NCBI GenBank assembly: GCA_021234155.1
Contig: JAJEKV010000035.1
Location: forward strand, 10,292,407 to 10,356,406
Origin: Isoetes taiwanensis
Lineage: Eukaryota; Streptophyta; Lycopodiopsida; Isoetales; Isoetaceae
Reading direction: 5' to 3'
Length of the DNA stretch: 64,000 nucleotides
In this document: positions 15,601-44,260 of the stretch, in pieces
Position numbering within the stretch: the stretch's first letter is position 1
How the letters are laid out: each line of letters starts with the position of its first letter
Translations under genes and position numbers: made by a program
The notes under the pieces: model-generated
Seen by the model: the letters and a program-made list of their open reading frames with translations, nothing else
Databases searched by the model: none
What the model was told of the DNA's origin: nothing

Positions 15601-16250
15601 GTAAGGTCTAGGCGCTTTAAGGAGATGCCTAGCTCCATTCATAATCCTCATAACCAAAAACTAAATAACAAAACAAAAAAAATTCAGCCCTCTACCTCCT
15701 CCTCCTCTTCCTCCTCCTCTTCTTCCTCCTCGAGCTTTCATCCGCCATCTTCGCCGATGTCTTCGGCAAAGATCTTCGCCTTTGGAGGAGGAGAGGGCGT
15801 CCCATAATCACCGCTTTTTTCTTCTTCTAATTCTTCCCCCATTCTTCATCCGCTTCCTCCATTTCTTCTTCTTTTTTTCAATCTCGCTTCTCCATCTCCT
15901 CATCCGAATCAAGGGGAGTATGGGGACTCTGGCTGCTGGTGCCGGTGCTCGATAATCTTTCCCCGCTAAGCTTGCCCCGAAGAAATAACTCCTCGCAATT
16001 ATCCTGACCTGGGTGCGAGAGCAGCCACAATGCATCTCATGGGAGGGGGGAATGGATTTCTTTATCAATTTTTTTATTTGCCTCTTTTGCCTCTGAGGAG
16101 GCGAAGTCCGGGGGATGGAGCGGAAGAGGCTCGGGCAAAGATGGCTCACCATGGTAAGGAAGGAAGAAAGAACGGATTGGCTTAGAAGGAAGAAAGGATT
16201 GGCGGTTGAAAGAATGGAGGGTTTTATGCATGCAAGGTTTCTTATAGGCG
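15601..16250. other. CT-rich stretch with an uncertain minus-strand ORF
   Basis: A CTC/TTC microsatellite covers about 15,690-15,740. The minus-strand ORF at 15,808-16,152 is Arg/Lys-rich because of the GAA-type composition and has no domain. It is not called as a gene. Confidence 0.4.
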
Positions 16251-17259: not shown

Positions 17260-17804
17260 GAAACATTATCCTAGCAAGAGGTCCAAGTCAAGTAGTGATT
17301 GTTCACGTGAAGCTCGACTAAGGTAAGGGGAATGGAATGTTGTTGGGCTAATTGTGTTCGAAGTTTGAAATTGATGAATTGGTGGAAGCAAGAGCCACCT
17401 TCCAAGAGTATACTTGTGATGAGAGGAGGACTTACATGTACTCCATTCATGAGCTTGCACTTCAAGATGAAAAATTTCCAAAGAAAAAAAAGATACCCAA
17501 TCGCTAGGGACATGGATATGTAAAGTTGCATGGATACATATTCATGGCATTCCAATTTCGTCTTGGCAAAATTGGCAAGCAAGTCATGCAAAGGGGAGTA
17601 AAATTGCATTACATGGAAATAATGGCATGTTGAGGCCAACTTCTAGGATCCTGGTTGCTAGGGAGGTTTTTGAAAAATATGTTGAATTCAATGCTGAGAA
17701 TATGCCACATAAAAGTAGGAAAGATCAACAGGGAAAAATAGTTGTCGAGAAGAGATTGCCATCCCATTGTACCCAGAAGAGCATATTGGAGGAAGTGAAT
17801 GCTT
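17260..17804 (+). pseudogene. DUF7869-like gene, part 1 (N-terminal)
   Basis: Plus-strand coding in alternating frames: a Cys-containing start near 17,331 (ECCWANC), FEIDELVEARATFQEY, RRTYMYSIHELAL, then from about 17,528 AWIHIHGIPISSWQNWQ, HGNNGMLRPTSR, AENMPHKSRKDQQGKIVV and LPSHCTQKSILEEVNA. Order and motifs match the N-terminal half of the large DUF7869-type family (Cys cluster, IHG, HGN.G, PHKSR...GEK-like). The coding sequence is cut at 17,804 by the CACTA element and resumes at 38,606 as LLRELQVPQYL. The family name comes from memory of the motifs. Function is unknown, possibly transposon-derived. Confidence 0.65.
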
Positions 17805-18300
17805 CACAACAAGAAAAGGGTCATTTAGCGACGCCAATAGCGACGCCATGGCGACGCCCGCGACGCCCGACGGCATAAGCCGACGTCACGCCAGACGCCG
17901 TTCGCATTACACGCCGCATGCGACGCGCGCCGCGATGCGTTGCCTAAGCCGTCGGCGCCGCTACAGACGTCGCTAAGCAGACGCGACATAGACGCCGGCA
18001 GACGTCGCGATGGCACGCGACACGCGAAATATACACGCGGAATATACACGCGGAACATCACCAAAATCCACGCGCCTGTCCGTAAAAGCCACGCGGTATA
18101 CGCCGCATGCGCGCGTGACGCGTGGAACGCATTACGCGGAATATACACGCGGCATATACACGCGGAATATACACGCGTAAAAGCCACGCGGTGTACGCCA
18201 GATCTTGACGTGACACGGGAATATACACGCGGAAAATTCAAAATCCGGCGTATAGAAAGCCACGGGCAAAAAAGCCGCGGGATACGCCGATGCGACGTGT
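17805..18300. repeat. CACTA left TIR and subterminal repeats
   Basis: After the 29-bp TIR come densely packed GCGACG/CGTCGC words and, further in, about ten copies of ATATACACGCGG-type words (18,030-18,235). CACTA transposition proteins of the TNPA kind bind such subterminal repeats in known elements. Confidence 0.8.
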
Positions 18301-18490
18301 AGGGGAAAAAAAAAAAAAAAAAAAAAAATATTTATATAAAAATATAAATATAAAAATATTTTTAAATAATCACAAAAGTGTTTTTATATTCATATTTTTA
18401 AATAGTCACAAAATTATTTTTTATATTTATATTTTTAAATAATCACAAAAAGTGAATTGTATTTATATTTTTAAATAATCACAAAAGACT
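18301..18490 (+). repeat. A-tract followed by a ~60-bp AT-rich tandem repeat
   Basis: A run of about 24 A residues is followed by about three units of TATTTTTAAATAATCACAAAA spaced about 60 bp apart. Confidence 0.8.
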
Positions 18491-20560
18491 CGTTAAGAGG
18501 AGTATCCACCCTTTTAGCCTAGAGCTACTCTCTCTCGATTCGCTGGAGTAGTCATCCGAGCACGAAGTTAGAGTACACCTCAAACCGTCACCCCGCATCG
18601 GTTATGATTGATGGCTCTCCAAATGACGCTTGCGATCCCTCGCCTCCCGAGCCCCATGTCATGCTCTAGACCTTCATTCATATCCGCCATCGCTTCCTAT
18701 AAAACCAAAAGAATATGGCGCACGTGTAGTTCATAGAATTATAATAATTTTCTACAACGCACTCCCCATTCCCCGCCGCTGGTGGGAGAGTTCCCTCGTC
18801 GATAACCGTTGATACAGATAAACAAATTTCCACGCCCGCGGCTACTTGTAATGTCTTTGCTTGTTAGGTTTAAACCCGTATAGATGTTCCTATGACAATA
18901 TAACGAGTATTAGCTAGTGACATTTAAAGTTCTTATTAAAATTAATGTGAACTAATATAGCTCTTACTAATCTATAGAGAAACCCTTTTCCGATCACGGA
19001 GCCCAAATGAGATTCGGCTTTAAGCTCACTTTTAGTTGCTTTTGTTCCGGTCCGAGCTCTATGTTTGCTTTCTCGATCCTTTTTGCATCGCTCAATGCAA
19101 TCCGATTGCAAGGCACACAACATTATCACAAGTTAAAGTGAACGAATGACAAAAAAATAAGAAATACCTTGATATCTTCCTTTGTGGAGATTAAGTGGTT
19201 TAGGACTTTTGACCAATCGCCCCTTCTTTTTCGCAAGTCCGCTTCAGCCTCCTTGACCACATGGTGCCTTTGACATAAATCGATAGATCAACGCCATATC
19301 AAAATAATAAAACAAGACTATGACTAGGTCATGTACCTCCTTTTCGTGATAAGTCGCCCATCATCGAAGTGAGCTTCTTCCGCTAAACGCCTTTGCTTTT
19401 TCTATCTCGAAACTCGCTTTCATTTTATTTTTGACGCCTCTATTTCGCTGTTGGTCATAAGCGCCGTGCCACTCCCTATACCGCTGGGAGGCCATAAACG
19501 AGAGATATTATTTGTGACCGCGTCCCTCGCTGTAGTATAAAAGACACTTCCCTCATCATCCTTCTTAGGAAGATCGTCCCCTCAAGCATAAATGGTGGGT
19601 ATATAAAAGCGTGTTTATGTCTACCCGCCAATATACATATCCCGGGTCCCATTAAGAACCTTTTGAGCACTTTACAATGTATTCTAAGTGAAGAGAATGA
19701 ACAAAACAACAAATTTAGATGACAAAGTACTAATATTTAAGGTTGATATCTTAAATAATATGTTCACATAACTTACATCAAAAAAATTATTATTAATATG
19801 ATAGTCGGGTATATTCGGGGCCAAATCACCCTTGAGACTTACGTGTCTAAAACAAAGCTTAAATGGACGCTTTCTTCAAGTGACACGTGGACGTCGTCGA
19901 TCCTTCCCTCTCCAAGTCGGCGAGCGACCATGTTCTTCGGATCCCGAACCCTGTGATGATCGTCGCGATCTCTCCACTACTTCTTGACCTGGGAAGTAAT
20001 GAGAGAATGAGCATCTTTAACATGCTGCAACCAAAGAAATGTTTGGTACGTAGTGGATATATATTTACTGTTGAAATCTTCCTCCAAGTTCCTTGCATTA
20101 GAAAAATCTGTTCCGCCTCTTGCCTAGAACGGGAGTCCATACTACGCCTAGCATTCTCAATATTCTCGCGAACGTGGAGGCCGATAATCAACACTATGTC
20201 GCTGGGGAATAGGAGCGGGAGGTCGCCTTAACCGGGCGTTGGTGTCAAAGAGGCAAAATATGCTACAATTTGGTCTCTCTCGGAGACATGTTTTGCGAGG
20301 AAAGGCGGGGCTATGAGGAGGAGGCAAAGCACAAATATCATGCAAAAAAACAATTCATTTATTTATTATTTTTATAAAAGCTATCTTAATACCCAAACCC
20401 TTTGCGGGTGTAGTGATAGGTGGAGGTTGGCGCCTTGGAGGAACATCAAAGCACGATTGCCCCTACCTCGTGGAGTCCTCCTCCTATTTTCTCTAAACTC
20501 GTCCCTTTCCTCTACACAACAAATTAAAACTCCATGCATAAACTCACATACCTAATTAGA
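18491..20560 (-). other. Possible minus-strand exons inside the CACTA element
   Basis: Minus-strand pieces look coding: DDEGSVFYTTARDAVTNNI (about 19,570-19,500), KQRRLAEEAHFDDGRLITKR (about 19,400-19,340) followed by GT, then after CAAAG a stretch HHVVKEAEADLRKRRGDWSK to about 19,169 followed by GTATTT, then a Lys/Arg-rich piece (19,090-18,970). They are charged and probably helical. They could be remains of a CACTA-encoded DNA-binding protein or a captured gene. I do not recognise them. The ORF at 19,859-20,194 is less convincing. Confidence 0.35.
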
Positions 20561-21539
20561 GGGTAAAGCGTATAATAAAAACTATATAAATACTTACCTT
20601 CGTCTTGCTCATTCTCCCCGACGATTATCATTACCTCTATTCATCGTAGAAAAAAAGAGCACACCTAGATCAAAAGAAATTGTGAGAGAAACATTTGATA
20701 ACCATGAATGATATTGGTTGCAATAATAGAATGATACTTACAAACCATAGAGATGAAAAATAGTATTTTTATGGTTCAAATGTGCCACTAATGAGCCCCT
20801 GGACTTATCATAGCCTTGACCGTCCTTGACCCGGGGGAGGGGAGACGCATAATGCCATGAATATTGCATCAGCAGAAAGAGGGCCACAATGAGGAAAACC
20901 GCTAAGAATTGAGCCTCCGCCATGACTATATATATTAATTTGAACATAACGAGAATTAGCGAGAGAAAAGCTTTGAACAAGTGTCTTTGAATAAATACCT
21001 AAATTTATATTCTTATCTTCTTATTTATATTAGAAAAGTATCTCGTATATAGGTATGGGGTGCATATCGAACTCTAGGTTGCCATATTATCGTGCCATGT
21101 ATCATGTCATACAATCAACCCTAAATTATCCCATCGTGGCATTTTTAGTGCCACATCATGAAACCCTACGCTATGTGGTGGCACATCATCAAACCCTAGG
21201 TTGTGTCACGTCGCGACTTCCTATTGCCACATCATAGTAAGTGCCATGTCATCAAACCCTAGCTTGCGTGTGCCACATCATCAAACCCTAGATTGTGCCA
21301 CATGGCATTTACAATCTAGGGTTTGATGATGTAGCACACAAAACCTAGGGTTTGACGTCTGTAGCGACACTTTATCTACAAGTTATGATTAATAATTTAT
21401 TTACCATCCTTTATTATAAAGTTTTAGTGTATGTCGTGCATAAAACCCTAAAACTTTCGGACGGCCAAGATTTGATTAATATTTTCGACTGGCCGAAATA
21501 TCCTTTCTCTTCTCATTTGTATGCGATTTAGGGATTTAG
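20561..21539. repeat. Noncoding, with CACATCATCAAACCCTAG minisatellite
   Basis: 21,040-21,360 carries six or more copies of the word TGCCACATCATCAAACCCTAG or close variants, including one in reverse orientation (21,318-21,340). 20,561-21,040 shows no supported gene. Confidence 0.7.
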
Positions 21540-21632
21540 GGCATCTCCGATTTACGGCATCTCCGGGGGCATGGCGGCCGTTGCGTAAATCTTCTTCGCC
21601 AGATTAAGTCGCCCGCCCCTTTTTGACCGCCA

Positions 21633-21890
21633 ATGTTCTTACTGGCTTCGAATCAATCTTCTCTGCCGGTTGAAGAGATAAAAAGCGATGTAATATTTAG
21701 GGTCCAAGGCGGTAGGAAATTTGAAGCGCTTTGGTTCGAAGATGTTTGTGCGCATTACCGGGGAATTGTAGAGCTCGGAAGAATGTTGCGAGGAGGTATT
21801 TGTCATCTTATGAAGCTCTTACGCACCTCAATCTCGATGTTTTTGTGTTGTTCCGAATTGGTCTTTGCCTTAGAACGTTCGACATGAGAT
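21633..21890 (+). pseudogene. Possible exon upstream of the CHR19-like fragment
   Basis: Open sequence reads PVEEIKSDVIFRVQGGRKFE and ALWFEDVCAHYRGIVELG, then in another frame RRYLSSYEALTHLNLDVF. It lies just 5' of the SNF2 motif I exon on the same strand. I do not recognise it as part of the CHR19 family and it may be a separate captured piece. Confidence 0.35.
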
Positions 21891-21892
21891 TT

Positions 21893-22497
21893 TTTCTTTT
21901 TCTTCTGACCATTCTTGCGGATGAGATGGGCCTTGGAAAAATGATCCGGGTGAATTCACTTTCTTTGGTTCATCTAGAAGTTACGTTGTTAGCATTGTAT
22001 AACTTAAGTCACGTTTTTGTTAGGCTCTTGCATTTCTAGCCCTCCTCCAACATCCGGAAGGAGATCCTGGTCCTCATTTAATTGTGCGCCCAAAGATCTG
22101 TGCTTGAAAACGCCGGCAAAGGAACTAGAGAAATGGTGTCCTTCTTTTGATGTGGTACTATTCCATGGCGCTAATCGGATGTCGACAAAAGAAGATTTGC
22201 AATATCTTTGCCAAGACTCACCAACCAGCACCATTTCATGTACTTGCTCGCCCGATTATTCACAATTTGAGAGACGCAGTATTTTATGCATCATATATTT
22301 AGCTGATTAGTATTTCTCTAAAGTTTGAAAGGTATGCCCGTGCATCCTCAAAAGAGGACCGTAGTATGTTGAGGAAATGGAATTGGAGCTGTGGTGGTTA
22401 TAGATGAGGCACATCTTTTAAAGGATAGAAACAACTTAAGAACAAAGCACTTAAGATTGATTGCACAAAATGCAAGGCACCTAGGTTAATGATAAGC
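21893..22497 (+). pseudogene. SNF2 ATPase fragment, CHR19/SMARCAD1 (ETL1)-like
   Basis: Exon one contains motif I, ILADEMGLGKMIR, and ends at 21,949 with donor GTGAAT. A 74-bp intron follows and the next exon (from 22,024) continues in frame ALAFLALLQHPEGDPGPHLI. After a one-base shift come KELEKWCPSFDVVLFHGANR and a broken PAPFHVL...YSQFERRS. A further exon has KEDRSMLRKWNWSC, then after another shift motif II, VVVIDEAHLLKDRNNLRTKH, and a decayed motif III region (RLMISAHRRNDL, normally RLMLTGTPLQNDL). Word order and the DPGPHLIV, KKWCPSF and DEAH-LKD signatures fit plant CHR19. Only the first ATPase lobe is present. This is probably cargo of the CACTA element. Confidence 0.85.
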
Positions 22498-23270
22498 GCA
22501 CACCGCCGTAATGACCTCGGTGTGCATGTTTGGCTTCAAAGAAAGTCGGTTTCAACAAACTCTGTCTTTCGAAGTCGATTCAAAGAATTCGATTTATGCA
22601 CATTAGTCTTCAGCCAGGATCGGGAGTTTGCTTTTACAAAATTTCGGCATGTTTGTCTGGCGTTTTTCTTGAGTTGTGGCGATTTGCTTGAAGCTGAAGT
22701 TTTGACCTGATTGATTCTGGCTTTCAGCTTTATTATAATGACAAAGATAACTTGAAGTTTACTCACGAAGGGCATCGAATTTCCAAACCTTTGCATGGGC
22801 AATTTGATGTAAGTACTTACCATGTAAATTAAGCTCTTAAGCTCAGATGAGGAAGGATATCATATTTTGTAAATTTTCTCTTGTTTGTTCCTTAGCTCTA
22901 ATATACCTTTTACTCCTTCGTGATTGCCAAGACGAAATTAGTAAGAGTCACGCTTTTCCGACGGTAAAAGAAGATTTGATAACACTCAACTTTAAAGGTA
23001 TGATCGGAAATCATGCCCATGAGTCTAACATTGGGATCTTGCTCATTTGTTCAAAATATTTGTTTTCTTTTATTTAGGAATTTGCTCCCATCACAGCATT
23101 ATATCTTTGGGCGATCCTGCCTTTGGAGTTACGCTCCCCGGTGCATTGTTACATGTTGTAGCGCTATGGCTTGGTTCAATTTTTATAGTCTCCTTTTATC
23201 GGTATAAAAGTTGTCCTTTTCTTGATACAAAAGGACCCTTGCCCGAAGTAGTTACAACATCTTATTGAGA
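22498..23270 (+). other. Unrecognised exons downstream of the SNF2 fragment
   Basis: Two stretches look like real exons: CTTTCAG|LYYNDKDNLKFTHEGHRISK... ending GAT|GTAAGT (22,731-22,808), and DEISKSHAFPTVKEDLITLNF ending AAAG|GTATGA (about 22,931-22,997). A third possible exon starts after TTTAG near 23,079. Splice signals are good but I do not recognise the protein, and it is not part of SNF2 lobe 2. Confidence 0.4.
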
Positions 23271-23329
23271 GACATGAAGAGGCATTATTAAAGGCATGTA
23301 ATGATTCTTTGAAAAACCCAAATAAATCC

Positions 23330-23420
23330 TGATATCTTTGAAGAATACGAGTTTCACTCCAACTGTGGATATTTATACTTTGAAGAATACGGTTTCACTC
23401 CAACCGTGGATATTTATCTT
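23330..23420 (+). repeat. ~46-bp tandem duplication
   Basis: The unit TTTGAAGAATACG...TTTCACTCCAAC.GTGGATATTTAT occurs twice. The copies differ at ACGAGT/ACGGT and at CTG/CCG. Confidence 0.85.
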
Positions 23421-24559
23421 GAGAAGTTATTCTCAATAAGTTTCCTTGAGTTTACCGGTTTTATAGTCCTTTCTACTTCTGTATAGGTAAAATTGGGAGG
23501 GAACTCCTAATGCTTATACATTATCTTGAATTGAACAAGCTGGAATATGTAAAATATTAAAGAAGTTTGATAAAAAGGTTGGTATCGAGTTGGAGAACAT
23601 TATCCTGCAAAGACAATTAACCACCCCCACTCTTAGCTTCACTGTTTTATGAACAACCGGGTATTTAAGTCAAGAACAATATAGAATAATTTGATGCGGT
23701 GTCTTGGTGGCATAATTGCTTTTGTTAATATAGGTGAATCTGTATGTGTCTAGGTTATCAACATAACATGAAAGTGGAGAATATGAATATGAAGGCCCAT
23801 ATATGCATGGTTTACGCCATTCCTTATACATCGTACTCAAGCTTGCATTATTTTCTAAAACCATGGCCCTTCTCTAGCAAATCTAGGTTGCACAATGGTA
23901 ATGAGAATTTAAAAACTTCTCCTTGGAAATTGACCGTTCCTCAATTTGTTTTATTGGCAGGCTTTGGTTAAATTTAATCAGAAAAGATCTCTTTGCATGG
24001 AGGGAATGCTATATTGGGGTAGATTTATAGAATGCTTAGAACTACAAGAATTATGCAAGGTGGCAAACAAATGATTGCAGTTGATCTACATATTCAACTA
24101 CATTGCCATGTTCTTTTCCAACAATTACAATTTTACATTTAAATATTTAATTGTATTTCAATGTCCTTTTCCAATGCCATGTTCTTTTCCAACAACTACA
24201 ACATTATACTTCAATAATTTTCCAACAACTACAACTACCCTTGATTAATTTAGCAGCTATTAGTAGTGTTGCAAAATATATCATCATATAGAGAAGGAAA
24301 TAGACAAATTTCATCATATAGAGAAGGAAATAGACAAATTTGTTAGATCATCATATAGAGAAGGAAATAGAAAAATTTGTTAGATCGGGAAATAGGTAAA
24401 TTTGTTAGATCGTATGAAAAGAAAGGGTGGAATGATGTGATGTGGATAAAAAGGCTTCCTTCTTAAAGAACTTTCTCTCTAATGTTCATTGCCTTTTTAA
24501 CCTTTTCACCTACTGCCTTTTTTTGCCCCTTATATACGACCTCCAAGCCTTATATTTGC
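23421..24559. other. Noncoding with short tandem repeats
   Basis: 24,105-24,235 repeats the word GTTCTTTTCCAACAA(C/T)TACAA. 24,270-24,420 repeats CATCATATAGAGAAGGAAAT and TTTGTTAGATC about four times. I see no gene. Confidence 0.6.
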
Positions 24560-25262
24560 AGAGGATCTAGGTCCTAGCTGTATCTTAGGCCAAAGATGGA
24601 AGACAATAATGAACACAACTTAGGTACCAAAAATCTTGGCATCATTATCAACCCTAGGTAAGATATATTTTCTGATGCATCCAAGAAAATGTATCAATTT
24701 AACATCATGCTTTTGTTTTACAGATGCCTACAAAAAATGATACAGACGATGTGCTCCAACACATTCTCAATTGGAGCAATCAATCGATGATTTACATGGT
24801 TCAATGACGTCATTCGATGTGAACTTAGATGAATGCCCAGACATCACCCTCCCACAATTGAATGCATTTCAAGCTATACTTTGCCAACATCTATATTCTT
24901 GGCACCCATTCATTTTTATCCTTTGTACAAAAATTACGAGAAAAGAAAAGCCAAGATATACATCACAAACAACGAAATACATACAACAAAATACATAGCA
25001 AAACTTGAGTTATTTATCAACAATCTATAGGTCCGTAGGATTGGATATTGGACAATGTATGTCATGTTGTCCTATCACACCGAAGAAGACGAACAACTGG
25101 AGACTGAAGAGCAACAAGCAGAAAGCCAGGAGAGTGATGACCAACATATGCGGAGCCAACAACCAGGATTCGATCAAGACTTGGTAGAGATACTCGAAGA
25201 ATACACCTTGGAACTCCTCGCCACCTCACAGAGACTTTGACTATAACCTCACCTCAAACCTG
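24560..25262 (+). other. Unrecognised coding-like stretch ahead of a Helitron end
   Basis: Overlapping frames read DLHGSMTSFDVNLDECPDIT (24,771-) and, from about 25,055, EEDEQLETEEQQAESQESDD then DLVEILEEYTLELLATSQRL before a stop at 25,240. It is acidic and Gln-rich. It may be a gene fragment captured by the Helitron that ends at 25,512. Confidence 0.35.
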
Positions 25263-25484
25263 CATAGATTAACATTTTACTTCCACTCAAAATTGCTAAG
25301 AACAAGCATCACAATGTTCTACTCAAAGCTCTCAGAGATACTGATGCAAAACCATCTAACATGAAGGAGATAGGCTTCTTAAACGTTCTTAAACCTTTGG
25401 AATGTTTTCGTTATAATAAAAAGGTACAAATATACTGCACACTTTTCTCATTGTGGCTAAAACATTTACAACCTCCCAAAGTAT

Positions 25485-25512
25485 GCCCAGCAACGCTGGG
25501 CACCATTACTAG
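25485..25512 (+). mobile_element. Helitron 3' end, intact hairpin
   Basis: A perfect 7-bp stem (GCCCAGC-AAC-GCTGGGC, 25,485-25,501) is followed by 7 nt and CTAG (25,509-25,512), then T. This is identical in design to 43,034-43,061. The 5' TC end was not identified, so element length is unknown. Confidence 0.8.
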
Positions 25513-25621
25513 TTAATAATAATTTTTTTGATTAATAAATTACTTTTTTCATTAGTAATTTTGACTAAAAAACATTTATTGGTTGCAACAAGCCTCAAAT
25601 AGGAAGACAAAATTATATTAA

Positions 25622-27136
25622 TCACTTCTTGCAAGCATTTAACAGTAGCTTAGCCATCTCAAGTGGATCACCACACTTCATATGTCGTCTCTCTCTCACA
25701 ACTATATCGGAAGAAAGCCCCCGCTTTGTTTTGAACACATCGACGACGCAGAAAGCAATAGATGGGCGATCCATGTGCACCAGCTCTCTATCCATCATCA
25801 TTTGGACCTTCATATGTTGGATGATGTCCAATGTGCTAAAGTATCGGTTCGGTTGGGTTTATCTCAACACACAACCCCATAAGCGCATTGCCCGGACAAA
25901 ATCAAGGAGCATCTCGTAAATGTAGCCCGGGGAATATATGTCGATATCTCATGCCCCCCATGATGCTTGGTCATCTGATGATGATGTAAAAACTCTCTTC
26001 TCCCACCAAGGATATCGCATCGTTCCATCTTGTAGTGTATAACGGCTCTTCAATTTGGGCATTCGCTCCTTGCAAAAAACGGGAGGGCCGTGTCCCAATC
26101 ACCAATAGCCACCCACACATTTTGTAAAGGGAGTCATCAAAATGGAGTTTGACCCTTTTGCAATTGAGCTTTGTGTGTGTCCAACTGGAGCGTGGATGGC
26201 ATAGACTCCTTACTGCAAGAGCGAGAGCTATTTACGGGACGTACTTATACACGAGTCTCTCATTTTGGCTTTCCACTCATACTTATCTTCATATCAGCCC
26301 TTCTTGGAGCACTATGCATTGCATTTGACCATCTCCTATAAGAAGAGAATTGGCTCGGAAGATGGTCAAGTAATTCTGCAAAGGTTCCTCCATTCATGAA
26401 TGGCAGGACTACCATTGGTCCCTGTGGCTCATCTCCACAAAAGACCTCAGGGGCAAGTCCAAGGGGTGTGGCCAATGCTGGACTTGGGCTCTTGAAACGG
26501 ATATACTTGTCAGCCAACAACCATGATGCAGCTCTATCTTGGCCTCTCCACATAATGCCAGTATAATAATCATCTTGATTAAAGTACAGGGTTCCCAAGA
26601 TCTGGATTTGGTATATCTGGCAGTCTTGTTTACTACCAATGCACTTTACAACTCCAACAGCATCCACAGGAATGCTGTCAATAAATGCAACACATTTATC
26701 ATGAGCATGTAATGATAATCTAGCCCTCGCACCAATAGAGCTCCCACCATGGATAAGACTATCTAACTCCTTCACCTGTTCATCATTGAGACTGCTACTG
26801 GCCATCTTGTGATCTTTGCGTCGGACCTTTGCACTTCGCCACGAATTAGCCCATCGTCCCACGTATGCCTCATAGATAGGGGCTCATAAGTGGCACTTTA
26901 TACTTAAGTAGCATCCTCAATTAAACTCGATTGCAAACCCAAGACTTTAAGTTCTTTCTCATCATATCTTCCAACTCAGACTCATGCTCTGGCCACCTCC
27001 CACATAATTCAGACCGACATTCTTTCTCAACTGATGCTACAAAACGGTTAATTCGATCATCGGTTGCATATGTCGTTAGGGCCTGTCGCCAATGCGATAT
27101 GTGATTGATGAGGATGCGCCTAATTTCACTAAGCAT
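25622..27136 (-). pseudogene. Unrecognised minus-strand gene, weakly kinase-like
   Basis: Minus-strand pieces in order: MLSEIRRILINHISHWRQAL... (27,136-26,921); MASSSLNDEQVKELDSLIHG through GPMVVLPFMNGGTFAELLDH (26,805-26,300); and TLDIIQHMKVQMMMDREL...LLLNACKK (about 25,840-25,622). The phrase VVLPFMNGGTFAELL resembles the hinge and helix D of a protein kinase, but I see no glycine loop, catalytic loop or DFG, so this is only a hint. Stops and frame changes separate the parts at 25,840-26,260. Confidence 0.4.
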
Positions 27137-27495
27137 CTACGTCCTTAATTGAGGCCATTTTATGCCTACAAACAAAACAAAATAATGAATACAAAAAGCA
27201 AAGCATGCACAAAGTAAATGCAACATAATCACGACAATATCAAACATGTATGGACCATATAATCATTACTTATAACAGCCCTATGGCGACTAATACCTTG
27301 TGATTGATGAGGATGCCTAATTTCACTAAAGCATCTCTGTCCCATCGAGGCCATTTTATGCCTACAAACAAAACAAAATAATGAATACAAAAGCCAAGCA
27401 TGCACAAAGTAAATGCAACATATCTGACAATATCAAACATGTATCAGGACCATATAATCATTACTTATAACCGCCCTATGGCGACTAATACCTTA
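27102..27495 (+). repeat. ~196-bp tandem duplication
   Basis: 27,102-27,300 and 27,302-27,495 are near-identical, starting TGATTGATGAGGATG and ending GGCGACTAATACCTT. Differences include CTACGTCC/CTCTGTCC, AATCACGACA/ATCTGACA and ACAGCC/ACCGCC. The left copy overlaps the start of the minus-strand gene. Confidence 0.9.
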
Positions 27496-27980
27496 TCCCA
27501 CCCCCATCCAGGTACTAAACAAGAAAAAACTAAATAGGTTAGATTAGGGGTATTCGGACCACGGTCAATTTACATTCGTATTACTAGTTAATTAGTTAGC
27601 GGATAGTCCCAAAATTTAGTTAACTTTTTAACCAAAAACACTACCTAAACTTATCTTCAAGACCTTGTTCGGATTAGTTAGCAAAATTAACTAAAAAATT
27701 AACTAAATTAGAAATTAGCACTATAGAGGTCACTTTAAGTTTAGTTAATTGTACATATAATTTTTATGCCTTTGGCTAACTTAACTAGACATGTTAGAAT
27801 AATTTAGTTAATTAGTTAAGTTATTTTTTTTACCAACGCTTTTTTAGTGCAATTAGTACTACATTAAGTTAGCCTAACCTATTTTTTTTTTAACTAGCAC
27901 GGGTGTGAAGGGAATCATCCAATTCTTTGTTAACTTAACCTAGCCCTAGCTACCTCTAGCTAAAACCCCGACAATAAACG
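27496..27980. other. AT-rich noncoding with TTAGTTAA words
   Basis: Many direct and inverted copies of TTAGTTAA/TTAACTAA. No coding sequence. It could be a degraded MITE or the repeat core of a larger element. Confidence 0.5.
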
Positions 27981-27984
27981 TGAA

Positions 27985-28390
27985 CTAAGGCCCGAACACA
28001 CGGTCCTCCCCACTCGCAAGCGGTGGAGCCACCATGTCCTTGCCGTAGCCACATCTACCTAAGAATGAAGAGAAAAGTGGACTTGGACCCGGACACCTAG
28101 TCCTCTCCACTTAAGGTGGAGCCGTAGGCCCTTGAACAAGCCACTACAATTTTATTTTAAACCTAAAAATAACAAGTGGGCCGAAAGTGGACTTGAACAC
28201 CCGGGCATCGTGGTCCTCTCCACTCTAGGTGGAGCCGGCCGTGCCAGCAGAACAAACCACTCATTAACCTAGGAAACATTTATGATTGTAGTGAAAGTGG
28301 ACTTGAACCCTGGGTACATGGTCCTCCCACTCTAGGTGGAGCCGAGGCCGTGCCCTTGAACAAACCACTCCATCAATTTTTAACCTACTT
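27985..28390. repeat. ~105-bp tandem repeat, four diverged copies
   Basis: Each copy holds GTGGACTTGAACCC-like, GGTCCTC(T)CCACT, GGTGGAGCCG and CCCTTGAACAA.CCACT words. The reverse complement contains GGTTCAAGTCC, which resembles an RNA polymerase III B box, but no A box or tRNA fold is evident. Confidence 0.7.
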
Positions 28391-28459
28391 AAAACTATAA
28401 AAATAAAATGCAAGTCACGATCAACTACTTACCAAAATAAGGGCGTGTACAAGATCCCT

Positions 28460-29320
28460 GTCGGGTCCAAATCGTAATAGAAAGCTGCAAATGAAGTAAC
28501 AAAGCATTAGAAGAATAAGAACAAAGAAGAAAAAAACAAGAAGAAAAAAAAAAGGAAAAAGGGGGATAGAAAACAAGAGATAGAAATAAAACAAGAGAAA
28601 GAAATAAGAGAATAGAAGGGAAGAAATAAGGATAGAATAGAGAAGAAATAAGAGAAGAAACAAGAAAGAATGAAGAAAAAATAAGAGGAAATAAGAGAAG
28701 GGAAGGGAATAGAATGGAAGGAAGAAATAAGGGAAGGGAAAGAAAGGATCGAATGGAAAGAGGAAGAAATGTGAAGAATAAGAAACAAATGAAGAATGAA
28801 GAAATGAAATTAAAAAAGAATGAAGAATAAGAAATGAAAAAAATGAAGAATATGGAAGGGAAGAGAAGAAAGAAATGGGGGAAGGGAGGGAAAGAATGAG
28901 GAATGAGAAGCATGAAAAAGAAATGGAAATGAGAAACAAATGAGAAAGCATAGAAAAGAAATGAGAAAGAAATGAGAAAGCATGAGAAAAGAAATGAGAA
29001 AGCAAAAATGAGAAAAGAATGAGGAAAGAATGAGAAAGAGTGAGGAATAAAGAATGAGAAAGCATGAGGAAGAAAGAAATGAAGAAAGAATGAGGAAGAA
29101 AGAATGAGAAAGAAATGAGGAAAGAAGAAATATGGGAAGAAAGAATGAGGAAAGAATGAAGCATGGAAGAAGGAGGAAGAAATGAAGCATGAGGAAGAAT
29201 GAGGAAGAAATGAAGCATGAGAAAGAAAGAAGGAGGAAGAATGAGCGAGGCATGGAAGAATGGGAAGAAAAAAATCAAGAACAAAGAAAGAAGAGGAAGG
29301 AAAGGAAACCAAAAAGAGGA
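28460..29320 (+). repeat. ~850-bp polypurine tract
   Basis: The plus strand is almost entirely A and G (GAAGAAA, GAATGAGAAAG and similar words). Long minus-strand ORFs rich in Ser, Phe and Leu are a consequence of this composition and are not genes. Such mirror-like purine tracts can form triplex DNA. Confidence 0.9.
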
Positions 29321-29654
29321 AGGTTGGGCATGCACCATTCAATCCAAAAACCTATTCAATCTAAAAACATGATATACTAACCTTAGAATAGTTGCTTGCG
29401 GGGTAGATCAGGTACTAGCGCCCATGATCGCCCAAGAACCTCGAAGAAGTAGGGCAAAAAGAAGTTCCTTAAAAGCCGGCCGCCCGGTTTCAAAATATTA
29501 CAGAGCGTCGATAAATGCGTCCGCCGCATCGCGACGTTATTTCATCTAGCGTCGCCGCGGCGTCCATGACGTATTTTGTTATAGCGGCGTTATTGTTTTG
29601 CATCTTTTTTAATGTGAAGCTCATTAAAGTTTGTCCCTAGGCTTATTTGAACAG
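29321..29654. other. Spacer with GCGTCG-rich words
   Basis: 29,505-29,595 is rich in GCGTCG/GCGACG words like those at the CACTA ends, but no TIR is visible. It may be an internal remnant of a related element. Confidence 0.4.
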
Positions 29655-32600
29655 TCCGGTGGATCCTTGAGCGGAGGATTCAACGGTGGGATATATAGGG
29701 GCTGAAGCCGGGGAGGGTGTTCATTAGCATCTGATCCCCGAGGCGGTGCAGGGGACGGCTGCCTCGAAGCGTTTTGGGGTCCGTCTCACCGGGGCGGGAC
29801 TCTCCCCTCTTGAGGTGGCCATTCAAAGTCGCCTTGTTTGACTTGGGGAAGGGTGCCATCATGCTTGCCCAACAACGGGCTGCCCTGGACCGTTCTAACC
29901 CCCAACGCTTGGAGTGGGACCTTATCCGAAAATTTTGGAAATTTTCCGTATCTTTGGTGATGACCATGGAAGCCAGTGACCAAAACCATAATTTAATTCC
30001 ATGCCATGCATTAACTACGAATTTATAAACCATAAATGCAATAAAATGCATAACTAAAAGAGTGTGCATCGAAAAAAGGCGAGTCTTTGACCGGGGGCAA
30101 CAAAGGCGGTCTTGACACATTAAAAAATTTTCACTTGGAAACTATGAAGCAATCTTTCATCAAGGTACAATTGTTTCGACAAACAAAACCAGTTCATTAC
30201 AAGTTAGTTATGCCATCCATGTCAAATAGCTTTAGAGAGCGAAAAAAACCAAAACAAAACCCTTCTAGAATCGGCAAGTCCGCAGGGGTTTCGTCCAATG
30301 CAATCTTAGACCAAGTATAGCGTCCAAATGAGCCAAGGTCAACCCCAAAGTACAACGATCCCACAAACTCCATTCCTTTGACCTTAGCTAACCCTTTGAC
30401 CTAGACCTCCAAAATTTCAAAATTGGGCTGTGTGATGGAGATGGATTAGGAATCAAGCGGCAAAAATCAGAAATTTATTTTTGTACAATGTATTAATTAT
30501 GAATTTATGAATGTCTTGCCTTTAAAAGCCCCCAGACTTCTACTTTTTGCCACATCGGAGGAGGACAGGCCCAAACTCCGCTCCGTCGGTTCCCCTTGCT
30601 CCGTATTCTCCTGCGGCTTCTCGGCTAGGTCCCAAGTGCAACAGACCAAGTCACCGGCCTCCAAAAAGCAAACCCTTCTAGAACACGGCAACCCACGGGT
30701 TTTACGTTTTGGAGGCCCTCTCCTTGTCGGTTCGGGGGGACCTTTGCGTAGTGAATTGGCGTGGAGTGGGGGTGTTGATGCGAGCACGGACCATAAAATC
30801 CCGGGCTGCTTGCCCCGAATTTCCTCTCCCAAGGCCACGGGGGCCGGGACGGGCGACCTCCCCTCTCGAGCTGCGATTTGACTACGCCAATGGACTCGAG
30901 CGTCGGCGTTGCCCTAGGGACCAAGTTACGTGGCGAGAAGACCAAAAAACTTCGGCCCCCAAACAAAACCCTTCTAGAATCACGGCAAGTCCACGGGGTT
31001 TACGTTTGAGCCCTCTCCTTGTCGCTTTTGGTGGGGACCTTGCAACCAGATCTTGACATGGAGTGGGGTGTTGGCCTTGAGGAGCTGGGACCCTAAACTC
31101 CCCTAAGTTGCTTGCCCCGAATTGGTTCATTACAAGTTAATTATGCCATCCATGTCAAATAGTTTTTAGGGCCGTCCAGTTGAACAAGGGGCATTCTCTC
31201 TATCCATATGCCTTTGTCTTGAAACACAACCATCATCACAAGCAACCAAATCTAACCCCCAACCCGCACTAGTCTTTTGCTTTTCTGTAATCATTTATCT
31301 TCATTCTAGTAGTTATGATGCTTTTCTCGTAATCATTTATCTTCATTCTAATAGTTATGATGCTTATATTCTCAATGCAATCTTAGACCAAGTATAGCGT
31401 CCGGCGAGCCAAATGCCAAGGTCAACCCCAAGTACAACGATCCCACAAACTCCATTCCTTTGACCTTAGCTAACCCTTTGACCTAGACCTTCTCCAAAAA
31501 TTTGAAAATTGGGCTGTGTCTTTGGAGATGGGTTAGGAATCCAAATGGCAAAAAATCAGAATTTATTTTTAGGTACAATGCATTAATTATGGAATTTATG
31601 AATGTCTTGCCCAGCGCAAAAGCCCCCAACTTCTACTTGCCACATCGGGAGGAGGACAGGCCCAAACTCCGCTCGTCGGTTCCCCTTGTTCAGATTCTCG
31701 GCTGCGGCTTCACCGACCAGTCCCAAGTGCAACAGACCAAGTCTCGGCCCCAAAAGCGCCAAACCCTTCTAGAACACGGCAACCCACTTTGGGTTTTGCG
31801 TTTTGGAGGCCCTCTCCTTGTCGGTCGGGGGGACCTTTGCGCGGTGACTTGACGATGGGGGGTGTTGGCCTTGAGCACGGACCCTAAAATCCCCTTCGGC
31901 TGCTTTGCCCCAAATTTCCTCTCCCAGGCCACGGGGACCGGGCGGGTGACCTCCCTCTCGGGATCACGATTTGACTCTGCCAATGGACTCGAACGTCGGC
32001 GTTGCCACAGGGGACCAAGTTCCGTGGCCAGAAGACCAGCCCGACCTCCAAGAAGCGCCAAAGTAGCTCACTTCCATCACACTCGTAGTCAATTGGCCTA
32101 GGATGTGGATGCGGGGATCTTGTCGTGGAGGCGTGAGTGTTTCTTTCTTTTGCAAAACCCACCTTGTAACTTGCTCCCTAGGGTAATTTTAGCCATTCCG
32201 GACGATTTGGCGGGGTCGATTTTGCCATTCCGAACCTCCCGGTGCCCGAACGACAAGACAACCCTGCCCGGTTTCTACAAAGGCCCTTGACCTCGGGGCG
32301 CCCGGTTTTGACAAGTTCTCGGGGCCGTCTGGAATCTTTTGGGCCTTCCCGAAGGGCCCCCGAGCGGAGGATCCAACGGTGGGATAGGGGAACCGAGCTC
32401 CGGGAGGGTGGTCATTAGCGTCTGCCCGAGCGCCGCCAGAAGGGCGCCTCGGGGAACTTTTTTTGGATCCCGCCTCTTGGGGTCCTGGACTCTCCCCTCT
32501 TGTGAGGGATCCCCGCAAGGTCCCTCGGCCTTTGACTTGGGGAAGGGTGCCACTGGTTTGCCACGCAATGGGCTGCCCCACCGTTCTAATGCTAACCCTT

Positions 32601-35600
32601 TGACCTAGACCTTCTCCGAAAATTTGAAAATGGGGCATGTGCTTTGGAAATGGATTAGGATTCCAAATGGCAAAAATCAGAATTTATTTTCGTTTACAAT
32701 GCATTAATTGCGAATTTATGAATGTCTTGCCATCGCAAAAAGCCCCCGACTTCTACTTGCCACATCGGGAGGAGGACAGCCCAAACTCCGCCCGGTCAAT
32801 TCCCTTGCTCCGTATTCTACCGCGGCTTCTCGGCCAGGTCCCAAGTGCAGCGGACCAAGTCTCGCCCCCAAAACGCAAACCCTTCTAGAACCCGGCAACC
32901 CACGGGGTTTTACGTTTTGGAGGCCCTCCTTGTCGGTCCGAGGCGGGACCTTTAGCGCGACTTGGCGTGGAGTGGGGGGTGTTGGCCTTGAGCCACCGGA
33001 CCCTAAAATCCCGGGGCTGCTTGCCCGAATTTCCTCTCCCCAAGGCCCTGGGGGCCGGACGGGCGACCTCCCTCTCGAATGCGATTTGGCTACGCCAATG
33101 GACTCAGAGCGTCGACATTGCCACAGGGACCAAGTTACGTGGCGAGGAAGACCACCCGACCTCCAAGAAGCGCCAAAGTAGCTCACTTCCATCACACTTT
33201 CGTAGTCAATTGGACTAGGATGTGGATCGGGGATCTTTATCGTGGAGAAGCGTGAGTGTTTCTTTTCTTTTACAAAACCGACCTTGTAACTTGCTCCCTA
33301 GGGTAATTTAAGCCATTCGGACGATTTGGCGGGGTCGATTTGCCATTCGAGCCTCCCGGTGCGAACGACAAGACAACTGCGGTTTCTACAAGGCCGACCT
33401 CGGGGCCCGCCGGTTTGACAAGTTCTCGGACCGATCTGGAATCTTTTGGGCCTTCCCGAAGAGGGGCCCCCCGAACGGAGGATCCAACGGCCGGATAGGG
33501 GAACCGGGCTCCGGGAGGGTAGTCATTAAGCGTCTGCAGCCCCTGGGGGCCGCCGGGAAGGGCTGCCTCGGGAACTTTTGGATCCCGCCTCTTGGGGTCC
33601 CACTCTCCCCTCTTGTGAGGATCCCCGCAAGGTCCCGCCTCGTTTGACTTGGGGAAGGGTGCCGGCTCGGTTGCCGCAACAGCGGCTGCCCGACCGTTCT
33701 AATGCTAACCCTTTGACCTAGACCTTCTCCTCAAAATTTGAAAATTGGGCTGTGTGCTGGAAATGGATTAGGATTCCAGCCGACAAAAAATCAGAATTTA
33801 TTTTAGCATACAATGCATTAATTGCGAATTTATGAATGTCTTTGCCACGCCAAGCCACCCGACTTCTACTTGCCACATCGGAGGAGGACAGGCCCAAACT
33901 CCTCCCGCCAGTTCCCCTTGCTCCGTATTCGGCTGCGGCTTCGGCCGAGTCCCAAGTGCAAATGTACCAAGTCCCGGCCCCCAAAACGCAAAACCCTTCT
34001 AGAACACGGCAACCCACGGGGTTTACGTTTTGGAGGCCCTCTCCTTGCATGTCGATTCAGGCGGGACCTTGCGCGTGATTCTGACGATGGAGTGGGGTGT
34101 TGGCCTTGAGCCGCGGACCCTAAAATCCCCTAAGTGCTTGCCCGTTTCCCTCTCCCCAAGGCCACAGGGGCCGGACGGGCGACCTCCCCTCTCCCAATCG
34201 CGATTTGACTACGCCAATGGACTCGAGCGTCGGCGTTGCCACAGGGACCAAGTTCCGCGGGGCGAAGACCACCCGACCTCCAAGAAGCCAAAGTAGCTCA
34301 CTTCCATCACACTTTCGTAGTCAATTGGCCTAGGATGTGGATGCGGATCTTGGCGTGGAGGGTGGTGTTTCTTTCTTTTGCAAAACCGACCTTGTAACTT
34401 GCTCCCTAGGGTAATTTAGCCATTCCGGACGATTTGGCAGGGTTGATTTGCCATTCAGGAGCCTCCCGTGCCCGAACGACAAGACACTGCGGTTTCTACA
34501 AGGCCGACCTCCGGGGCCCCGGTTTGACAAGTTCTCCTTAACCCGTCATCTGGAATCTTTTGGGCCTTCCCAAGAGGGGCCCCCCCTAGCGGAGGATCCA
34601 ACGGTGGGATAGGGGAACCTGCTCGGGAGGGTGGTCATTAAGCGCACGGCCCGGGAGCGCCGCCAGAAGGGCTGCCTCGGGAACTTTTTGATCCCGCCTC
34701 TTGGGGTCCTGACTCTCCCTCTTGTGAGGGATCCCCGCAAGGTCCCGGGCCTCGTTTGACTTGGGGAAGGGTGCCCGCTCGGTTGCCCCCGCAACCGGGC
34801 TGCCCCGGACCGCTCTAATGCTAACCCTTTGACCTAGACCTTCTCCTAAAATTTAGAAAATAGGGTCTGTGGCCGGAAATGGATTAGGATTCCAGGTGGC
34901 AAAAATCAAAATTTTTTTCGCACAATGCATTAATTGCGAATTTATGAATGTCTTGCCAGCAAAAGCCCCCAGGCTTCTACTTGCCACATCGGGAGGAGGA
35001 CAGGCCCAAACTCCGCTCCGTCGGTTCCCCTTGCTCCGTATTCACCATTGCGGCTTCGGCCCGGTCCCAAGTGCAGCGGACCAAGTCACGCCCCCAAAAC
35101 GCAAACCCTTCTAGAACACGGCAACCCACGGGGTTTACGTTTTGGAGGCCCTCTCCTTGTCGATTTGGGGGACCTTGCACAGTGACTTGACGTGGAGTGG
35201 GGATGTTGGCGCCGAGCACGGACCCTAAAATCCCCCTAAGTCGCTTGCCCTAATTTCCTCTCCCCAAGGCCACGGGGATGGGCCAGGCGACCTCCCCTCT
35301 CCTAATCACGATTTGACTGCTCGCCAATGGACTCGAGCGTCGGCGTTGCCACGGGGACCAAGTTCCGGGGCGAGAAGACCACCCGACCTCCAAGAAGCCA
35401 AAGTAGCTCACTTCCATCACACTCGTAGTCAATTGGCCTAGGATGTGGATCGCGGGATATCTTGTCGTGGAGGCGTGAGTGTTTCTTTCTTTTGCAAAAC
35501 CGACCTTGTAACTTGCTCCCCTAGGGTAATTTTACCATTCCCGACGATTTGGCGGTCGATTTGCCATTCAGTAGCCTCCCCGATTGCGAACGACAAGACA

Positions 35601-35905
35601 TGCCCGGTTTCTACAAGGCCGACTTTAGGGCCGCCCAGCGGTTTTGACAAGTTCTCGGACCGATCACGGAATCTTTTGGGCCTTCCCAAGAGGGGCCCCC
35701 CGAGCGGAGGATCCAACGGTTGGATAGGGAACCGGGCTCCCGAGGGTGGTCATTAGCGTCACAACCCAGGAGGCGCCAGAAGGGTCACCTGGGGGAACTT
35801 TTGGATCCCCGCCTCTTGGGGTCCTGGACTCTCCCTCTTGTGAGGGATCCCCGCAAGGTCCCGGCCTCGTTTGACTTGGGGAAGGGTGCCAACTTCGGTT
35901 GCCCA
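29655..35905 (+). repeat. GC-rich tandem array, ~1.11-kb unit, five-plus copies
   Basis: The anchor GAATTTATGAATGTCTTGCC occurs at 30,501, 31,592, 32,712, 33,826 and 34,938, giving spacings of about 1,091-1,120 bp. A partial unit begins the array (29,655-29,910). Each unit runs through CTTGCTCCGTATTC, CCCTTCTAGAACACGG, GGAGTGGGG, AAGCCAAAGTAGCTC, CTAGGATGTGG, TTTGCAAAACC, GGATCCAACGG and GACTTGGGGAAGGGTG. Many ORFs cross it on both strands but none is shared intact by all units. Reverse-complemented, about 500 bp of each unit aligns with the spacer of the 54-64 kb array. Confidence 0.9.
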
Positions 35906-36284
35906 TCGCTCTTTTTTTTCTCCACAATTCCATCGCAGCAAGGCAAATGTGCTTCCTGCGTTGATTTTTGGAATGACGAAATTTGAAACAAAAATCCAAC
36001 GCTAGAATCGGTTATCAAATCAAAGTCACGCCCCACTTGGTTGCACAAGCACGAAATGAAATGCCGGTCTCAAGGACTTTCTTATCTAACCAATCTACAC
36101 TATCTTGAGAGCCAACTAGATCCACCACGAAATATCGGTGGAGTGTCTAGCATAATATCCTCTAAATCAACTTTTGTGGCACGATGGCTCGATTATCAAA
36201 CGTGAATCCAAGCTCTCTGAAAAGATGACGCGCATCATTTTCTATACTCCTTGCCAACCCTGATTGTTTGCACCTTGATTGTTT
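35906..36284. other. Noncoding interval
   Basis: No coding or repeat structure that I can support, apart from the end of the 1.1-kb array. Confidence 0.4.
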
Positions 36285-36613
36285 GCCCTAAATCGCTTTA
36301 AAAACAATGGGAACATGAATTGAAGGAAAAAGTAGTACCATCTGTCAAGCTATCTGTGTACATATACCATGAAGATCAGAGAAGAATAAATTGTGTTGAA
36401 TTTTGTAAGCACGACATTGTGCTTACTACATATGGAACCATTTCTTCTGAATTACAGAAGCCATCTGAAGAGGATGAAAAGAAGCAGCCCCCCAGGCTAA
36501 GGGGCACACTGTCGAACATTAGGTGGTTTAGAATTATTCTGGATGAAGCTCAATCCATTAGAAATGCTCACACTAAAAGTTCATGTGCTTGCTGGGGCTT
36601 AAGGGCACAATGA
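36285..36613 (+). pseudogene. SNF2 ATPase fragment, CHR27/CHR28 (FRG, RAD5/16)-like
   Basis: The plus-strand frame reads CPKSL, then an in-frame TAA, then KQWEHELKEKV, LSVYIYHEDQR, CKHDIVLTTYGTISSELQ, a charged linker, LSNIRWFRIILDEAQSIRN and CACWGLRA before a stop. These match motifs Ia, Ib and II (DEAQ) of the plant CHR27/28 subgroup of RAD5/16-like SNF2 proteins, where LDEAQSIKN and ACWGLRAKRRW are characteristic. Motif I and the second lobe are missing. It is a different subfamily from the fragment at 21.9 kb and lies in the same CACTA element. Confidence 0.85.
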
Positions 36614-36661
36614 AGATGGTGCCTTTCTGGAACATGCGACCTTCTACGACACATATGTCAC

Positions 36662-36776
36662 GAAAGTTCTAGAATGTTCTAGAAAGTTTTAAAAAGTTAA
36701 AATATAAGAGAATCTTGGGTGAGCCTAAGGAATCCTTCTAGAAAATTCCAGAATGTTGTAGAAAGTTCTAGAATGA
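36662..36776 (+). promoter_or_regulatory. Two clusters of heat-shock elements
   Basis: 36,662-36,690 reads GAA-nn-TTC-nn-GAA-nn-TTC-nn-GAA in perfect 5-bp phasing. 36,736-36,776 carries about eight consecutive nTTCn/nGAAn pentamers with one mismatch. This is the binding pattern of heat-shock factors and is seen in LTRs of heat-responsive plant retrotransposons. No transcript can be assigned. Confidence 0.65.
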
Positions 36777-36979
36777 ATGTTGCGAGAGAATACACTTATT
36801 TTCTTCCCAAAGCATTTTGCTAGATGACCAATTAAAATATTTTGGTTCAACCAACTCCACAATTCTCTTGATTTTCGATGAACAAACTTGTCCAAGAAGG
36901 CAACAGCCTCCACAACCTCAGAATGGCCATAATGAAGAAATTAAAAAAGACAGTTAAGAGATTTCTCGAAAAAAAGCGA

Positions 36980-37945
36980 TGATTTTTCTTTCAGTATGTT
37001 GTGATTTGTCGGATCATACAATCGATGCAAAGAAGAACCCATAAAAATCTTGGCTCAAAGCGAACAAGTTCATGAGTCATGAAGCGAAAACAATCTGAGC
37101 ATGGCGTTAAAAAACTGCACCAAAGGATCTGATTTTGGCATGTAGGAGAAGAGAGGTCTGTTTTTCGGTATTGGGTGTTCGTGAAGAACCCCCAAATGTC
37201 GGCAAGCTCAACCTCAACCTTGTGATCCCTAAGCTCCAGTCTGAAGCCCATTTTCCTTTGCACCATGACATGCTCTACTTTGAAGACTTCCAAGGTAACA
37301 GCTGGCAGTTTAGATACTCTTACTGGCATAGCAGCCAGAGCTATGTTCCAATTCCACTTTCCATGTATGGATCTCCGAAACAAGGCCATCAACAGGTGTA
37401 GCCACATAGTATCTCGGCTTTTCAAAATCCTCATCAATGGGGTCGGCTTCATATGGAACTTGTGCAATTGAAACGCAAATTCCTCCACCATCATATATCA
37501 CAAAATCATCCAGACGTTTGGCAGGTAAAGTTGCAAGTTCAAGCATTGCTGATTCCAACCTTGATGTTGATCTTTCAACTTCCATAGTGCCATTAGAATT
37601 ACTTGTATACCCAGCATGAGATTTTAGATCATAACCTTCTTCCCCCTGTATTGACGTATCCATATGTGCTTCTTTGGTTTGCTGATATAGTTCCAGACAA
37701 TATTTTTCCAGCTCTTGCAAGCTCTCAAAGCCCCCAAAAACCATTTTTTCCGCAGTTCGGTTTCTGAAGAGTCTAGATGAAGGAGATAAACCTAGAATCC
37801 GCCATCGACGCGTCCGGGACAAGCGGCTGCAAGTCATATTAAACACTATAATGCTTCGGCGGACAAAAGGTAAAAGTGTGGGATTTTTCTTGTGTTCTTG
37901 CACAAATTTTAAGGCTTTATCCTGTTCTTCTCTCAGCAACAATGA
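36980..37945 (-). pseudogene. Unrecognised minus-strand gene fragment
   Basis: The frame from 37,942 includes LREEQDKALKFVQEHKKNP, GFESLQELEKYCLELYQQT, ATLPAKRLDDFVIYDGGGIC, IAQVPYEADPIDEDF and [21 protein letters not shown] second frame continues with [20 protein letters not shown] and [19 protein letters not shown] toward 37,150. The amino-acid texture is that of a real globular protein. I do not recognise the family. It is probably captured cargo, with a frame break near 37,330. Confidence 0.5.
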
Positions 37946-38189
37946 TTGACAACAAGCCTATTGTCAAGTTACCTTCAAGGATTGTAAACTTGGAACAACT
38001 AGATTTTGACACAGACAACGTCAGTTTTATAATGAACAATTTATAGCGTTAGCACATCTACGGTGATGATGCATGCTTGTGCAACACGCTTAAATGAAGC
38101 CGCAGGTTGGTCGCCGAGTCTTTTTCGCATTGTATCAATCGACAATTATTGAATTTGTAATCCTAAAAACCATTAACCTTCGTGGTATA

Positions 38190-38602
38190 AAAAAATATCG
38201 TCACATGCGACCACCTACGTCACATATATACGCATCGACGTGTCATATACGTCACATATACATCGACGCGTGTCATATACGTCCACATATACGTCTTCGA
38301 CGTCACATACGCCACATACGTCATCGGCGTCACATACGACACATACGCCACATAACGACACATACGTCACATATACGACGCCGCATGCGGCGCCACGTCA
38401 GAACATCCACCGGCGAGACACTGCCACCGCCGCCCACCCGCGCAAAGCGCCCACCGGCGTGTGTCGTGCGTCGCACTACACGTCGCATGCGACGTGTCTA
38501 CGACGTGACGTCGCTTTGACGTCGCATGGTGACGTTATTTGCGACGTCACGTCGCACAGACGTCGCAAGCCCACGTCGCTAAATGTCCATTCTCTTGTTG
38601 TG
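38190..38602. repeat. CACTA right subterminal repeats and TIR
   Basis: First come about fifteen copies of (T)ACGTCACATA-type words (38,195-38,370), then GCGACGT/ACGTCGC words up to the TIR. The layout mirrors the left end, with an ACGTCGC-rich zone next to the TIR and a shorter tandem word further in. Confidence 0.8.
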
Positions 38603-38605
38603 CTT

Positions 38606-39221
38606 TGCTTCGAGAACTACAGGTACCGCAATATCTCAACCCAACTTGATGAACTATGGAGGAAGCACTTCAAGCATGTCACTATAGACACTTCGAACAA
38701 CTTTGCAAAGTGCAACTTGTGTGCTAAGTTGAAAGAGATTCTTGATAAGACCAAGCAACCAAGCCAAAGGGCTAAGATAAGGGAGCAAATGAAAGATCAC
38801 ATGACTATCATGTAGATCCACTTATTGGATGTGGAGAACATTATCATGTTTGGAACCCAATAACTATGTTTGTATTATCCATGACAAGATGGATCAATCG
38901 AAGACTTGTTTGCCACAGTATAGTTACATACCCAAGCAAATCAATAGAGCTTATCCTTTGCAAGTCTCTCCGACAAAAAGCAATAGTGCATGGCTCTAAG
39001 TGCCAATTTATTATGGCCATTTTAGTTTGCAATTGTGGAGTGATGGTCCTGATTTTCATATTGGAAGTGTGATGAGGTGCTTGAGGAACTATGAGAGTGG
39101 TTATTCTGGTGACCTCCACAACCCTGGAGGTGGTAGCCAACCACTCTTCAGTGCATTGTTGGATAGAAAGCCTAATAATTTAGAGAAGTTTACTAAGGCA
39201 AGGTTTAGGAAGTCAGGTGCT
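38606..39221 (+). pseudogene. DUF7869-like gene, part 2 (middle)
   Basis: The sequence resumes LLRELQVPQYL, shifts frame, then ISTQLDELWRKHFKHVTI, NNFAKCNLCAKLKEIL, RAKIREQMKDHMT, later IIHDKMDQSKTCLPQ, YGHFSLQLWSDGPDFHIG and AKARFRKSGA-like residues. The FAKCNLCAKLK and MDQSKTCLP words are typical of DUF7869-type proteins. It is cut at 39,221 by the second insertion. At least three frame changes occur, mostly by one base. Confidence 0.65.
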
Positions 39222-44255: not shown

Positions 44256-44260
44256 GTGCT

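Follow-up and report, generated by a model that had tools for sequence, protein, structure and literature searches.

The 20.8-kb stretch at 17805-38602 of the window, as we call the whole 64,000 nucleotides of Isoetes taiwanensis DNA that were analysed, is with a probability of about 0.95 a non-autonomous CACTA (CMC/En-Spm) element inserted, with duplication of CTT, in one of the many copies of a repeat that encodes DUF7869. It is a composite unit whose transposase region has probably been lost or replaced and which later received a Helitron. Its ends, its target site duplication and the reading frame that is rejoined at its junction all bear out the preliminary description of a CACTA-type, non-autonomous insertion. 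The insertion is real, and its family is apparently new but of a kind already known, namely CACTA elements of large size that contain pieces of genes and a satellite array.

The left terminal inverted repeat (TIR; CACAACAAGAAAAGGGTCATTTAGCGACG, 17805-17833, + strand) and the right one (CACAACAAGAGAATGGACATTTAGCGACG on the reverse strand, 38574-38602) had been described as matching 29-bp repeats, and they are identical at 26 of 29 bases. They are bordered by the flanks ...GAATGCTT on the left and CTTTGCTTCG... on the right, and the two copies of the CTT duplication (17802-17804 and 38603-38605) are confirmed both by these flanks and by the empty sites described below. Inwards of the TIRs lie the subterminal regions, the left one (17834-18305, +; 74-82% identity to left-end copies) with GCGACG-type repeats and the right one (38151-38573, -) with GACG/CGTC repeats. 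GCGACG/CGTCGC occurs 8 times in the first ca. 500 bp and 9 times in the last ca. 500 bp and is almost absent in between, so that the subterminal repeats previously described for this element are present at both ends, in the direct and inverted form expected of CACTA (CMC/En-Spm) elements. The 3-bp target duplication expected of this class was read at both ends in two elements only, the one in the window (CTT, with exact empty sites) and the one at C299 (ATA). A point against the assignment is that the termini are CACAA, not CACTA; the TIR starts with CACAACAAGA, one change from CACTACAAGA, and all loci read have this same start motif.

In the window, the TIR pattern matches only the two ends of the element (up to 3 mismatches; 0 matches in 100 shuffles). 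A search of the Isoetes taiwanensis contigs (1,658,258,908 bases, 1,110 contigs) with up to 2 mismatches rendered 579 forward and 551 reverse matches, 1,130 in total, while the reversed-pattern control gave 0. Two types were found genome-wide, GAAAAGGG corresponding to the left end and GAGAATGG to the right end, which, among the matches listed, often face each other at distances of 5-36 kb. The DNA outside the TIR was different at the 18 ends read, which fixes the TIR boundary. The preliminary description would have been refuted if no other locus shared the two ends, but other loci do share both, and the copy number of the family is at least several hundred.

The preliminary description further held that excision of the element rejoins a DUF7869-like frame, a claim open to the objection that the flanks might never have been contiguous in other DUF7869 copies. 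They are contiguous, and uninterrupted genomic copies read across the junction. The joined flanks (450 nt) rendered 1,745 first-look candidates and at least 40 scored places at 95-97% identity. Two aligned empty-site copies carry the uninterrupted sequence GAAGTGAATGCTTTGCTTCGAGAAC, which corresponds base for base to the window minus the element and minus one CTT, and two further copies are collinear across the junction by BLAST; the reading frame over the junction in the empty-site copies is ...ILEEVNALLRELQVPAISQPSF.... In the window, the right flank of the element lacks one base near the junction with respect to the copies. The target is 98.2% identical to two empty-site copies over about 1 kb, which implies that the target copy in the window is not very old. 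The 5' part of the interrupted repeat lies at 15980-17804 (+) and is collinear with the copies L043 and L044, the continuation is found at 38606-39222 (+), and the 3' part, beyond a second insertion, at 44250-45407 (+), with a match to PF25273 at 44204-44725 (E=7.9e-36).

A domain search of the genome for DUF7869 detected 10,445 first-look places, and the matches listed, from 150 scored, were all above the cut-off. Together with the 1,745 places for the exact target, this number indicates that the target is a high-copy repeat and not a single host gene. The description of the target as a coding exon thus holds in that a frame is interrupted, but not in that it would be an ordinary host exon, since the frame belongs to a very high-copy repeat, and the insertion is a transposon nested in a repeat rather than the disruption of a normal gene. 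Plausibly, the DUF7869 repeat is itself a transposon; it contains the conserved motifs LDNCAGQNKN and GHTHEDVD, which may belong to a DDE-type transposase. No paper naming DUF7869 was found in the openly accessible literature. Most DUF7869 frames in the Isoetes taiwanensis genome are repeats, and it would be wrong to include them in a count of ordinary genes. The DUF7869 copy that contains the CACTA element has a second interruption at 39222-44255, a 5.0-kb insert that begins with TG, ends in CA and is accompanied by a duplication of 5 bp, GTGCT; it is perhaps a solo LTR or a decayed LTR element. Either side of the DUF7869 locus, about 43 kb apart, a 4.4-kb direct duplicate is located (4144-8473 and 47630-51997, 94.6% identity).

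Inside the element, scanning the larger ORFs against Pfam revealed no transposase, nor did any of the places listed in genome searches for TNP2 fall within it, in line with the previous observation that no intact transposase is visible; an own TNP2, as an autonomous element would have, is thus absent from the larger interior ORFs scanned. TNP2 (Transposase_21) is present, however, in relatives with the same ends, as expected of a CACTA (CMC/En-Spm) family, and the relatives with a transposase that had been suggested as worth looking for do exist, although their transposase is often damaged. The TNP2 at C1037 (PF02992, E=1.8e-73) has an uninterrupted frame of 457 aa over the domain, while many other TNP2 copies contain stops. 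Its relatives are located about 7-11 kb inside family right ends at C1, C1048, C1067, C1049, C1101 and C1025, and in all six an SNF2 fragment lies between TNP2 and the right end. The element at C299 is compact, about 9.5 kb, and complete, with both TIRs, the ATA duplication, TNP2 and DUF4218 toward the left end and the SNF2 fragment at the right end, and at C1019 left end, core, TNP2 and right end follow in that order over 26.9 kb.

The interior of the window copy consists of a left part with no recognised gene (18306-21406; tested ORFs without Pfam match), a Helitron, a family core sequence (25513-28400), a purine-rich simple tract (28421-29340), a satellite-like array and the SNF2 fragment. 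For the core segment 25513-27300 there are 765 first-look places in the genome, the scored ones mostly at 89-96% identity. Alignment of the interior between copies, proposed earlier as a way of seeing which cargo moves with the ends, was informative in the case of C1077, a sibling of about 14 kb in which the two end regions, the left interior, the family core, the purine-rich tract and the right end are all found, together with part of the satellite; the shared blocks have 87-93% identity and stand in the same order as in the window. This sibling has kept only part of the array and part of the SNF2 region, and its outermost left bases are damaged. The several gene fragments of the preliminary description come down to one clear SNF2 fragment; the second, a weak SNF2-like motif, is located inside the nested Helitron, and the other interior ORFs tested rendered no convincing Pfam match. 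Antisense ORFs at 26263-26883, 36994-37497 and 37313-37957 were discarded as genes: they have no Pfam match, and in other copies their frames are broken and a codon-position signal is absent.

The Helitron (21407-25512, +, 4,106 bp) has 5'-TC and CTRR-3' ends (A/TC...CTAG/T), a 3' hairpin and a position between A and T without target duplication, all of them features that define this class. At this position C1077 has the exact empty site ACCA/TTAATAATAA, from which it follows that the Helitron inserted later than the CACTA element, of whose total length it makes up about 4.1 kb; C1077 has a different insertion, a Helitron of this family that sits elsewhere in reverse orientation. The core, which sits 3.6 kb inside the left ends at C985, C1019, C1059 and C930, lies 7.7 kb inside in the window, as the insertion of the Helitron predicts. 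The 3' end pattern of the Helitron matched 1,836 + 1,897 places in the genome, 3,733 in total, against 0 for the control. The SNF2-like motif at about 21.9-22.0 kb (PF00176, E=0.031, below the cut-off) was rejected as the 5' part of the captured SNF2 gene because of its position inside the Helitron.

The 6-kb satellite-like array is also real. It occupies 29669-35904, that is, about 29.7-35.9 kb, with a unit of about 1.1 kb, the first units being incomplete, and is shared with C1077. The same unit forms arrays at several places in the genome, and a right TIR of the family follows within 3.6 kb in 3 of the 6 arrays whose right side was read (C1104, C1100 and C1034), while no right end was found in the stretch read at C985, C941 and C952. 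A left end lies upstream of the C985 array. The location beside family ends at C1104, C1100, C1034 and C985 indicates that the array belongs to the family as a recurring component. On the opposite strand, a further, outer array (54540-64000) contains a 19-bp minisatellite; over about 460 bp it is 66-76% identical to the inner 1.1-kb unit.

Such a patchwork interior could also be expected if the two ends belonged to different CACTA copies that by chance flank unrelated host DNA, a composite of the macrotransposon type, and this could account for the sharp boundary between the satellite and the SNF2 block at 35904/35910, a position at which the relatives with TNP2 carry a different sequence. However, the CTT duplication and the exact empty sites require that the whole block was inserted in one event, the distance between core and left end is constant, 3.6 kb, at C985, C1019, C1059 and C930, and the identical block order in C1077 largely refutes a chance arrangement, which we regard as very unlikely. 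An artefactual joining of unrelated contigs is conceivable in a repeat-rich genome assembled from Nanopore reads with optical scaffolding (PMC8566536), but the junctions are base-exact, with TIR and target duplication, and at many loci the same ends are found again next to different flanks, so that an assembly error has a negligible probability.

The SNF2 fragment (35910-38150, +) has exon parts at about 36302-36610 and 37758-38043, and as a piece of a host gene between the TIRs it gives the element the hallmark of gene-capturing, Pack-CACTA-like elements. The first part matches PF00176 with E=7.5e-12 in the Pfam scan, and a longer exon at C299 with E=6.2e-22; the fragment is tentatively filed as RAD5/RAD16-like. 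The region 36050-38150 has 827 first-look places in the genome, the best full-length ones at 92-95% identity. A functional SNF2 gene was ruled out, since in 8 copies most frames are broken and changes in the main exon are evenly distributed over the codon positions (27, 20 and 25). It can be argued that the fragment is nevertheless a working gene of the family, retained because its protein helps transposition: many copies, whether or not they have TNP2, carry it beside the right end, and at C299 an open stretch of 156 aa runs across the ATPase motifs. The even changes and broken frames speak against this, as does the fact that the copies read hold only part of the ATPase domain, which renders such a role extremely improbable. 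That the fragment benefits the family in another way, for instance through an RNA acting against an ATPase with which the host silences chromatin, is also scarcely likely, given that coding constraint is lacking and that no more than 13 identical bases in a row are shared with the host gene at C1055. This gene, located with a CHR28-like query and to be taken as a lead rather than the outcome of an orthology test, is the closest and the only related one among the host genes read, with aligned stretches at 36-52% aa identity, one 113-bp stretch at 73% and a longest identical run of 13 bases. It was discarded as the direct parent for being too dissimilar, and no direct parent was found. The fragment is an old passenger at the right end, common to the TNP2-bearing relatives.

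We therefore favour the interpretation of the region as a non-autonomous CACTA insertion. The element inserted, duplicating CTT, into a DUF7869-encoding repeat copy, most likely by cut-and-paste, the TNP2 being provided by other members of the family that share its ends. The composite, made up of left end, core, purine tract, satellite array and right end with the SNF2-gene fragment, travels as a unit, as the order of the blocks in C1077 shows. The window copy probably derives from TNP2-bearing relatives through loss or replacement of the TNP2 region, as the shared blocks, rather than a tree, suggest, and the 4.1-kb Helitron entered it afterwards, as the empty site in C1077 shows.

With these results, a CACTA family of very high abundance is on record for a lycophyte; a search of the openly accessible literature found no publication on such elements in Isoetes, which does not prove that none exists. 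Size and cargo, previously considered unusual, are not exceptional, since facing family ends are up to tens of kb apart and a CACTA element of Chenopodium quinoa is 16,523 bp long, has a satellite array of 5,550 bp close to its 3' end, an array that recurs in other copies, and has relatives with captured gene fragments (PMC8978399). That family, Jozin (PMC8978399), resembles the present one in being of the TNP2 type, with gene fragments in some copies and a satellite near the 3' end, but its monomer is of 171 bp and its host an angiosperm, whereas here the unit is about 1.1 kb, the host a lycophyte and the window copy devoid of TNP2. Tgm-Express1 of soybean (PMC1947982) is likewise a CACTA element carrying exons and introns of host genes, although it is of 5.7 kb, with five gene fragments, and lies in an intron of a pigment gene; the part of that report available to us mentions no satellite array. 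Pack-CACTA elements (PMC8903248) share with the window copy CACTA ends around captured coding DNA and the absence of an own transposase, but here the captured fragment is also found in TNP2-bearing relatives, which implies that its capture was not an event confined to the non-autonomous copy. A pattern known from angiosperms thus recurs in a lycophyte: gene fragments and a satellite array are acquired close to the 3' end, after which the whole is multiplied as one unit.
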